This document shows positions 38,833 to 41,305 of a stretch of 44,546 nt of DNA, piece by piece (the first letter of the stretch is position 1; each line of letters begins with the position of its first letter). Both the position numbers and the translations under genes were made by a program. Under the pieces are notes generated by a model. That model saw only the letters and a program-made list of their open reading frames with translations. It was not told the origin of the DNA and did not search any database. Source of the DNA: Flavobacteriales bacterium. GTDB taxonomy: Bacteria > Bacteroidota > Bacteroidia > Flavobacteriales > Flavobacteriaceae. Where the stretch lies: NCBI GenBank assembly GCA_027039975.1, contig JALWFE010000043.1, forward strand, positions 1 to 44,546, read 5' to 3'.

Positions 38833-38865
38833 TTTGTGGCAATTATTAAGAATTTTATATATTTG
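38833..38865 (+). promoter_or_regulatory. Promoter of the trp leader/trpE transcript
   Basis: TTTG (38833-38836), 21-nt spacer and TATATTTG (38858-38865) match both halves of the Bacteroidota consensus. Transcription is expected to begin near 38872, 13 nt before the leader peptide ATG. Confidence 0.65.
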
Positions 38866-38884
38866 CTTTATAAAACATAAGATA

Positions 38885-38941
38885 ATGAACCTGTTTGTTG
38901 CAAAATTGTGGTGGCGTTTTACCTTTTCCCGGTCAGGATAA
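38885..38941 (+). CDS. trp leader peptide (TrpL-like), 18 residues
   Basis: ATG at 38885, TAA at 38939-38941. The product is MNLFVAKLWWRFTFSRSG with tandem Trp codons TGG-TGG at 38909-38914. It lies between a consensus promoter and trpE. The Trp codons sit upstream of a protector hairpin (38922-38943), an antiterminator and a terminator. This is the expected layout of a ribosome-mediated attenuator that senses charged tRNA-Trp. It is too short for ordinary gene calling. The peptide itself is not expected to have another function. Confidence 0.85.
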   Translation: MNLFVAKLWWRFTFSRSG

Positions 38942-39004
38942 GGAAGCTGCTGTTTTGCATATTTACGTAATTCAAAGAGCTTGCCCGATCCGGCAAGTTT
39001 TTTT
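38922..39004 (+). promoter_or_regulatory. trp transcription attenuator (protector, antiterminator, terminator)
   Basis: Region 1:2 pairs 38922-38929 (CCTTTTCC) with 38936-38943 (GGATAAGG), seven of eight pairs. Region 2:3 pairs GGAAGCT (38942-38948) with AGCTTGCC (38978-38985), seven pairs with one bulge. Region 3:4 pairs CTTGCC (38980-38985) with GGCAAG (38992-38997), followed by seven T (38998-39004). The 2:3 stem excludes both others. A ribosome stalled on the Trp codons (38909-38914) would cover region 1 and free region 2, giving readthrough. A ribosome at the stop codon (38939-38941) would cover region 2, giving termination. Confidence 0.82.
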
Positions 39005-39024
39005 ATAACAAAACTTTCAACTCA

Positions 39025-39064
39025 GGTTACTGAGCTTGTCGAAGTATAACATTTAACTTTCAAC
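39025..39064. repeat. CTGAGC/TGTCGAAGT dispersed repeat before trpE
   Basis: GGTTACTGAGCTTGTCGAAGT (39025-39045) is followed by an AACTTTCAAC-type segment ending five bases before the trpE ATG. The same pair of modules stands before hemW (44161-44220). Confidence 0.65.
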
Positions 39065-39068
39065 TAAT

Positions 39069-40448
39069 ATGAAATATCAAGCCAAAACAATCGAAAAATC
39101 CGCCGACTTAATTACACCCGTAGGTGTTTATTTGCGTATCCGAGACCGGTTTCCGGAAAGTTTATTGCTCGAAAGTTCGGATTACAACAGCGATAAAAAC
39201 AGTTTTACGTTTATTGTAGCAGGCCGTTTGGAACAGTTTACTGTTCAAGGAAAATCGTTGATAATCAACGGTAAAGAAAAGAAAATTACTGATAAAAATA
39301 CGGTTAAAGACAATTTGAAATATTTCATCAAACAAATTGAAGTGTCACAACCCGGCAAAACCAAGCAGTTTAACGGCTTATATGGTTTTACCGGTTTTGA
39401 AGCGGTACAGTATTTTGACGATTTTGATTTTGAAATCAAACCTAAAAAAGATGATATTCCGGAAATGTCTTACGGTTTTTACCGTTTTATTGTAGCAATT
39501 AACCATTTTAACGATGATGTCATTGTGTTGGAAAATATTCCCGAAGGCGACTTGTCACAATTAGACGATTTTACCGGCTTGGTTTTTGCGCAAAAAACGC
39601 CGGAATTTAAATTTAAAGCCGGTCACGATGAGACTTCTTTTATCAGTGATGAGGATTTTCTCGATTTGGTACGAAAAGGCAAAAATTATTGTCAGTTAGG
39701 CGAAGTATTTCAAATTGTATTTTCCAGGCGTTTTCAACAAAGTTTCAAAGGCGATGAATTTAATGTGTATCGTGCCTTACGGTCTATCAATCCGTCGCCT
39801 TATTTGTTTTATTTTGATTACGGTAATTTCAAATTATTCGGTTCGTCGCCCGAAAGCCAGTTGGTTATTGCCCGTGGCGAAGCCAAACTCAATCCCATAG
39901 CCGGTACTTACAAAAAAACCGGTGATTTTGAAACTGATAAATTATTAGCCGAACAACTTCGCCAAGACCCAAAAGAAAATGCCGAACATACTATGTTGGT
40001 CGATTTGGCCCGCAACGATTTAGGACGTTTTTGCACACAAGTGGAAGTCAAAAAATACAAGGAAATACAACATTTCAGTCATGTGATTCATATAGTGTCG
40101 GAAGTAACCGGAAAAGTCCGTTCGCAAGATGATGCCATTGATATTTTCGGAGCAACTTTTCCCGCAGGAACTTTGAGCGGTGCCCCTAAATATCGGGCAT
40201 TAGAACTCATTAATAAAGATGAAGCGCACCAACGTAGTTTTTACGGTGGAACAGTAGGTATTATCAGTTTGACCGGCGATATAAATACGGCAATTACCAT
40301 CCGTTCGATATTGAGTCAAAACGGCAAATTGCATTATCAAGCCGGTGCCGGTGTGGTGGTCGATTCCGTACCGGAAAATGAATTGAAAGAAGTTGATAAT
40401 AAGCTGGGCGCTTTGCGAAAAGCCATTTCTTTTGCAGAAAAATTTTAG
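39069..40448 (+). CDS. trpE: Anthranilate synthase component I
   Basis: 459 aa. The N-terminal part has ITPVGVYLRIRDRFPESLLLESSD, with the LLES motif used for tryptophan feedback binding. The chorismate-binding C-terminal domain has GEVFQIVFSRRF, FGSSPESQLV, NPIAGTYKKTGD, HTMLVDLARNDLGRFC, FPAGTLSGAPKYRALE and FYGGTVGIISLTGD. PIAGT, the LLES motif and the Trp attenuator upstream favour TrpE over PabB. With TrpG it makes anthranilate from chorismate and glutamine. The amidotransferase gene follows after 263 bp of repetitive DNA. The other trp genes are not in the window. Confidence 0.94.
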   Translation: MKYQAKTIEKSADLITPVGVYLRIRDRFPESLLLESSDYNSDKNSFTFIVAGRLEQFTVQGKSLIINGKEKKITDKNTVKDNLKYFIKQIEVSQPGKTKQFNGLYGFTGFEAVQYFDDFDFEIKPKKDDIPEMSYGFYRFIVAINHFNDDVIVLENIPEGDLSQLDDFTGLVFAQKTPEFKFKAGHDETSFISDEDFLDLVRKGKNYCQLGEVFQIVFSRRFQQSFKGDEFNVYRALRSINPSPYLFYFDYGNFKLFGSSPESQLVIARGEAKLNPIAGTYKKTGDFETDKLLAEQLRQDPKENAEHTMLVDLARNDLGRFCTQVEVKKYKEIQHFSHVIHIVSEVTGKVRSQDDAIDIFGATFPAGTLSGAPKYRALELINKDEAHQRSFYGGTVGIISLTGDINTAITIRSILSQNGKLHYQAGAGVVVDSVPENELKEVDNKLGALRKAISFAEKF

Positions 40449-40455
40449 TAATTAT

Positions 40456-40478
40456 GTAGAGACGCACGACCATGTGTT
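40456..40478. repeat. GTAGAGACG-type repeat, degenerate copy
   Basis: GTAGAGACGCACGACCATG then TGTTT. The left half matches the element at 44084 and the right half is a decayed complement (CATGTGT for CGTGCGT). It lies 8 bp after the trpE stop. Confidence 0.5.
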
Positions 40479-40547
40479 TGAATTGAGAATTGAAAATGGC
40501 GCTTCGATACAATTTTGCTCATTCTTTGCAAAATCACTCAGCGACCT

Positions 40548-40691
40548 TTCCTCAATTCCTCAATTTAAAAGCAGGATTATAGTATGAAGTAATAAACAAT
40601 CATAAAAACTCAAAGTATTCTCTGAAGCACAACAATTCCTCATTTCCTCAAATTTGAAGTAGTATTTATCTGTGAAGCAATAAGTAATCAT
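40548..40691. repeat. Diverged 56-bp direct repeat between trpE and trpG
   Basis: Unit 40548-40603 and unit 40636-40691 align without gaps over 56 bases, about 42 identical by hand count, 88 bp apart. Both begin TTCCTCA and end AATCAT. The second ends 20 bp before the trpG ATG. No gene is visible in 40449-40711. Confidence 0.6.
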
Positions 40692-40711
40692 CAAAAAAAA
40701 CAAAATAATCT

Positions 40712-41305
40712 ATGAATCAAAAAAAAATCCTCATAATAGACAATTACGATTCTTTTACCTATAACTTAGTGCAATACGTCAAAGAACTGACTGATGCACA
40801 AGTAGATGTTTTTCGCAATGATACTATCGGTTTGGAAGAAATTGAAGCTTATGATACTGTTATTTTTTCTCCGGGTCCCGGAGTACCACAAGATGCCGGT
40901 ATTATGATTGATGCCATCAAACGTTATGCACCGCATAAAAAAATGTTAGGAGTTTGTCTTGGGCATCAAGCCATCGGGGTAGCATTCGGTTCGAAATTAA
41001 GCAATCTTAAAAAAGTGTATCACGGCATACAAACACCGGTAAAAATTGTGGATAAGAAAGACCCTGTTTTTAAGGATGTAGCGAACGAAACAGAAGTAGG
41101 GCGTTATCATTCGTGGGTGATTGATCCGGGAACATTAAGTGGTGAATTACAAGTCACGGCAGTATCGCAAGACGGACAGATAATGGCAGTTAAACATAAA
41201 AAATATCCGGTTTGGGGATTGCAATTTCATCCCGAAAGTATTATGACTAACGAAGGCAAAAAGATGATACGCAATTTTTTGGAAATCGACAGGAGAGAGT
41301 ATTAA
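40712..41305 (+). CDS. trpG: Anthranilate/aminodeoxychorismate synthase glutamine amidotransferase
   Basis: 197 aa, full length. Class I glutamine amidotransferase with nucleophile Cys82 in MLGVCLGHQAIG and the His173/Glu175 pair in FHPESIM. The N-terminus has IIDNYDSFTYNLVQY and the oxyanion region is FSPGPGVPQDAG. It supplies ammonia to TrpE; in many bacteria one such subunit also serves PabB. Same strand as trpE and probably dependent on the same attenuated transcript, though the 263-bp gap could hold a second promoter. The next gene (MarC family) is on the other strand, so the tryptophan gene group ends here. Confidence 0.95.
   Translation: MNQKKILIIDNYDSFTYNLVQYVKELTDAQVDVFRNDTIGLEEIEAYDTVIFSPGPGVPQDAGIMIDAIKRYAPHKKMLGVCLGHQAIGVAFGSKLSNLKKVYHGIQTPVKIVDKKDPVFKDVANETEVGRYHSWVIDPGTLSGELQVTAVSQDGQIMAVKHKKYPVWGLQFHPESIMTNEGKKMIRNFLEIDRREY

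Follow-up and report, generated by a model that had tools for sequence, protein, structure and literature searches.

Trp_leader (RF00513) is the trp attenuator known from Proteobacteria, and in other phyla trp genes are controlled by T-boxes or TRAP. Leader-peptide outputs other than an intrinsic terminator switch also exist. Bacteroidota promoters follow a −33/−7 consensus, and members of this phylum rarely use Shine-Dalgarno sequences. The closest catalogued system is RF01692, Bacteroid-trp, which Rfam describes as the Bacteroidete tryptophan peptide leader RNA and which appears in Weinberg et al. 2010 (PMC2864571, Table 1). Extracts of further papers note Bacteroid-trp ahead of the Flavobacterium psychrophilum trp operon (PMC6414381), report strong clues from transcriptomics of the same species to leader-peptide attenuation at amino-acid operons, trp being unnamed in the extract (PMC9723704), and describe Bacteroides thetaiotaomicron short ORFs reminiscent of leader peptides (PMC7366714); in another extract, Naville and Gautheret (2010; PMC2965389) state that to their knowledge leader-peptide systems were unshown outside Proteobacteria and Actinobacteria. 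A literature search for Bacteroidota trp attenuators, with subscription papers mostly outside its scope, returned nothing beyond the works cited here. This kind of attenuator is already catalogued for Bacteroidota, though thinly described: among the papers searched, only three carry the name Bacteroid-trp, and one of these deals with an unrelated subject. In view of RF01692, PMC6414381 and PMC9723704, the original prediction's remark that it is less described in this phylum is only partly right.

The locus studied here lies before trpE in contig JALWFE010000043.1 of a Flavobacteriales bacterium (Flavobacteriaceae; GCA_027039975.1), all 44,546 nt of which we call the window. Judging from its sequence and from relatives, the element is very probably a ribosome-mediated transcription attenuator of trpE, or of trpE and trpG (Table 1). 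The kind of regulation is known; the form seen here is one that the current RF01692 model misses. The 18-residue leader with two adjacent tryptophans (WW), the promoter box and the three overlapping pairings before trpE, one of them the seven-T terminator, all described in the original prediction, can be seen in the sequence and are kept in congeners, and the ribosome-mediated trp attenuation it proposed appears well supported by comparison. It had placed the Trp codons before region 1, which is wrong: because of the protector pairings they lie inside the protector 5′ arm, as they do in the Rfam alignment.

Table 1. Features of the trpE leader and the adjacent genes, in window coordinates.
Feature	Coordinates	Strand	Details and support
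Candidate −33 element TTG	38834..38836	+	21 nt 5′ of the −7 box; sequence; Bacteroidota consensus
−7 promoter box TATATTTG (TAnnTTTG)	38858..38865	+	TAnnTTTG in 10/10 congeneric leaders
Leader peptide ORF MNLFVAKLWWRFTFSRSG with stop, 18 codons	38885..38941	+	Sequence; shuffle test; WWR in 10/10 congeneric leaders
Tandem Trp codons TGG TGG	38909..38914	+	Invariant, 10/10 congeneric leaders
Protector hairpin 5′ arm (region 1)	38900..38915	+	38900-38905 pairs with 38953-38958, 38910-38915 with 38946-38951; folds, alignment
Protector hairpin 3′ arm (region 2)	38946..38958	+	38946-38951 and 38953-38958; alignment
Antiterminator 5′ strand	38934..38957	+	Three helices: 38934-38939/38988-38993, 38944-38948/38978-38982, 38953-38957/38973-38977; includes last leader codons
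Antiterminator 3′ strand	38973..38993	+	38973-38977, 38978-38982, 38988-38993; folds, alignment
Intrinsic terminator hairpin and seven T	38974..39004	+	Arms 38974-38985/38992-39003, T 38998-39004; folds, hairpin/T-run scoring
trpE, anthranilate synthase component I, regulated gene	39069..40448	+	NCBIfam trpE_most; trpG next
trpG, glutamine amidotransferase component, downstream of trpE	40712..41305	+	TIGR00566 trpG_papA 184 bits, cut-off 121

In the window, the −7 box lies 19 nt 5′ of the leader ATG and, by reading, a Shine-Dalgarno sequence is absent from the leader. The first antiterminator helix draws on the final codons of the leader and extends one base into the stop codon (38939-38941), which may explain the conservation of those bases among congeners. 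The intrinsic terminator stands between the leader and the first gene, its hairpin and T-run beginning 32 nt after the leader stop and trpE starting 127 nt after it. The minimum-energy fold of 38870-39068 contains both protector and terminator, and its energy is better than that of 195 of 200 dinucleotide shuffles (z −1.98). The window antiterminator, at −6.2 kcal/mol with 15 of 16 pairs kept, is the weakest of the congeners; the terminator stands at −14.4 kcal/mol.

In the mechanism that we infer, the start site, translation, ribosome footprint, stalling and tryptophan response are all predicted from these elements: transcription would start just after 38865 and the 18-codon leader would be translated at once. 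With ample Trp-tRNA, the ribosome would reach the stop codon and cover the antiterminator 5′ strand, and the terminator would form. With scarce Trp-tRNA, it would stall at the Trp codons and mask the protector 5′ arm; region 2 and the final leader codons could then pair with the terminator 5′ arm and loop, so that RNA polymerase would continue into trpE. On an untranslated leader the protector would form and the terminator would remain available.

We examined these sequence elements, how well they are conserved and whether the pairings exclude one another in ten full-length congeneric leaders, the window's included, drawn from 40 genomes (again with the window's own) by TrpE search and from 80 public-collection loci. 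These are ten of 12 leaders, the other two (L004, L005) being left out as their contigs start inside the leader. Among the 12 same-genus genomes (G001-G012) nine gave leaders, and G003 and G010 are without a close TrpE; the genome behind one row, G007b, has two contigs with trpE and is 6% contaminated. The original prediction had suggested aligning relatives for the tandem TGG codons and the stems, and this alignment bears it out: TGG TGG, the TAnnTTTG box, the WWR peptide, the antiterminator and the terminator are kept in 10/10 leaders, and a stable protector in nine. In alignment A3, 97.2% of the 250 protector and terminator cells are paired, against 41-56% with the partner slid, and 95.6% of the 160 antiterminator cells, against 14-59%. 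The compensatory changes that were also expected did appear, as five two-sided pair changes (three in protector/terminator, two in the antiterminator), but all in a single row, that of the most distant congener, G012, and so may count as few events; the slid control structures also gave up to two two-sided pairs. One-sided changes that keep a pair occur in the window and in several other congener rows. The mutually exclusive protector, antiterminator and terminator are thus kept in relatives, the standard protector being stable in 9/10, while duplex tests on the window alone were not significant (p 0.14 and 0.075). In G012 the standard protector is unstable (+3.5 kcal/mol) and an alternative protector folds instead.

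Folds of the RNA from 38927, the part beyond a ribosome assumed to be stalled at the Trp codons, depended on where the transcript ended. When it was cut before the terminator 3′ arm was complete, the terminator 5′ arm was sequestered in 10/10 leaders (−16.0 to −18.7 kcal/mol); when the whole terminator was included, the terminator won in 8/10, the exceptions being the window and G004, and antitermination in those eight would therefore have to be kinetic. The remaining genome placed in the window's genus, G006 (L091, G006:C11), differs: its TrpE shares only 51% identity and its leader has WWW instead of WWR, so that the WWR form holds for the congener set and not for every genome placed in the genus.

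The wider comparison used an even sample of 296 Bacteroidota genomes, with counts that cover the 79 having TrpE at E ≤ 1e-90 (among them the window genome; 30 are from the window's family) and say nothing on the other 217. A WW leader was defined as an ORF of 6-45 codons with WW within 550 nt upstream of trpE; for G275, which has no WW leader at 550 nt, 1550 nt were taken since its RF01692 match lay there. In that genome (L166), by reading, a WWR leader, a hairpin and a T-rich tract stand before an apparent trpB, about 1.3 kb ahead of trpE. WW leaders were found in 74 of the 79 trpE genomes and WWW in 65, against 1/79 on the reverse strand and 38/1580 in dinucleotide shuffles, which ignore shared ancestry and gave no WWW. 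The five genomes without WW comprise two with W-L-W and two with W-A-W-F-W leaders with a scored terminator, and one, G312, with no leader. Such leaders with non-adjacent Trp codons before a hairpin (W-L-W or W-A-W-F-W in G118, G176, G162 and G069, W-C-W in locus L034) are likely further variants of the same control. The 80 public-collection loci gave a WW ORF in 73 and WWW in 66; seven lacked it, three of them at contig ends (L004, L005, L053; leader cut or ≤168 nt left), one with W-C-W and, by eye, a hairpin, and three with no leader. Eighteen more relatives from the family or order were examined, two of which are in the phylum sample as well, and a WW ORF was present in 18/18.

The surrounding signals recur with the leaders. 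A TAnnTTTG box stands ≤60 nt before the leader start in 58/74 WW leaders, against 3/74 control stretches and 84/1480 shuffles. A scored hairpin and T-run follows 66/74, against 2/74 control stretches and 0/370 mononucleotide shuffles, which preserve single-base composition only, and the remaining eight have, by eye, a hairpin with a poorer T-run. Across the 66 of 79 genomes used, duplex tests reached p ≤ 0.05 for the antiterminator in 26/66 and for the protector in 19/66.

These terminators bear on the reading in which a Trp-codon leader acts on trpE through another output, by Rho-dependent termination, reinitiation or masking of the trpE start. Reinitiation has been proposed for leader peptides near their gene (PMC4833913, in the extract available). 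However, the hairpin and T-run so close behind the window's leader stop, and behind most WW leaders, argue against any such output, the distance from leader stop to trpE is long for reinitiation, and we consider this reading very improbable. Slightly less probable still is coincidence, a plain terminator of an upstream transcript with a WW ORF arising by chance: shuffles of the window's 200-nt leader do yield a short WW ORF (116/20,000), and the window-only duplex tests leave room for it, but the WWR ORF and box shared by every congeneric leader and the WW leaders found across the phylum sample speak strongly against it. What these data favor is a tandem-Trp ORF that, judged from its position ahead of a trp gene and its conservation in relatives, would serve as the sensor of an attenuator.

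We then compared this attenuator with the RNA family models. RF01692 was the top leader match by bits, at 27.5 against a gathering score of 49, and aligned over its full length (model positions 1-131) with TGGTGG in register; the window also has the hallmark of this family, a hairpin ahead of trp genes that carries the Trp codons in its 5′ arm. By E-value, RF01692 (0.36) came after an opposite-strand Atu_C9 match (0.0088) and a match to STnc370 (0.29); none of the three reaches its cut-off. Formal membership in RF01692 was rejected, the score being under the cut-off, and Atu_C9, STnc370, ncr1015 and the other sub-cut-off matches were taken as chance. The window resembles RF01692 in phylum, in gene context and in where its tandem Trp codons lie, the hairpin 1 5′ arm, and differs in its peptide, WWR where RF01692 has WWW. 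The proteobacterial RF00513 was likewise rejected (14.9 bits, gathering score 41): the window shares its architecture of Trp codons in segment 1, protector, antiterminator and terminator, but has a Bacteroidota-type promoter box and, by reading, no Shine-Dalgarno sequence. WWR occurs in the E. coli TrpL peptide as well, which we treat as a coincidence. Tryptophan sensing by an element that binds tRNA or a ligand (T-box, riboswitch or TRAP-type), as in the other phyla mentioned above, with the ORF incidental, is scarcely credible, since no Rfam family reaches its gathering score anywhere in the window and the conserved features are Trp codons and competing pairings.

Among the eight congener sources searched with RF01692, none reached the cut-off; two matched (35.5 and 31.9 bits) and the rest gave nothing at E ≤ 10. 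Under stricter filters, which lose weak matches, RF01692 matched 29/296 sampled genomes, 27 of them over the cut-off, and every one of the 29 belongs to the 74 WW-leader genomes. The sole Rfam model for Bacteroidota trp leaders thus recovers 29/74 WW leaders in this stricter-filter scan, and a model of wider scope would annotate the others. The comparison points to leader-peptide attenuation as ordinary trpE control in a phylum where it is seldom discussed.

A distance of 4-8 nt separates the end of the TAnnTTTG box from the leader ATG in 20/74 WW leaders (e.g. G028, G133, G314, G013, G168), so that, at the usual spacing from box to start site, a leaderless or almost leaderless leader mRNA is predicted for them. 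These predicted leaderless leaders offer a direct test of ribosome loading for attenuation. Taking these observations together, we tentatively suggest, at somewhat less than even chances, that Trp-leader attenuation is the default trpE control across Bacteroidota, over half of it missed by the RNA family model, and that it operates on transcripts whose 5′ untranslated region is very short or absent: about a quarter of the leaders would be leaderless or nearly so for the sensing ribosome, and the window would be a short-UTR version of Shine-Dalgarno-independent attenuation.

As for the genes controlled, the best NCBIfam match of the window TrpE, trpE_most at 405 bits, falls under its curated cut-off of 517.7 and is ahead of every aminodeoxychorismate synthase model. 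In the window genome trpEG (39069-41305) lies apart from trpDCFBA, which is on contig C91 (L198:7711-12132), with trpD, B, C and A over an NCBIfam cut-off and trpF under; the window attenuator would accordingly govern anthranilate synthase only. The 550 nt before C91 trpD hold no WW ORF and one TATTTTTG box. Congeners G001 and G009 have the leader and all seven genes, trpEGDCFBA, in one contiguous run, and among the eight closest public-collection loci trpD follows trpG within the flank in seven, the eighth ending soon after trpG; an assembly error may lie downstream of trpEG in the window. The upstream junction is supported by G007:C117, in which the leader is immediately preceded by the C-terminal part of the RlmL-like gene that lies upstream in the window (73% over 174 residues). 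Between trpE and trpG the window has a 263-nt gap (40449-40711) with no ORF of at least 100 codons, and in the eight closest loci 22 to 528 nt separate the match ends of the two genes.
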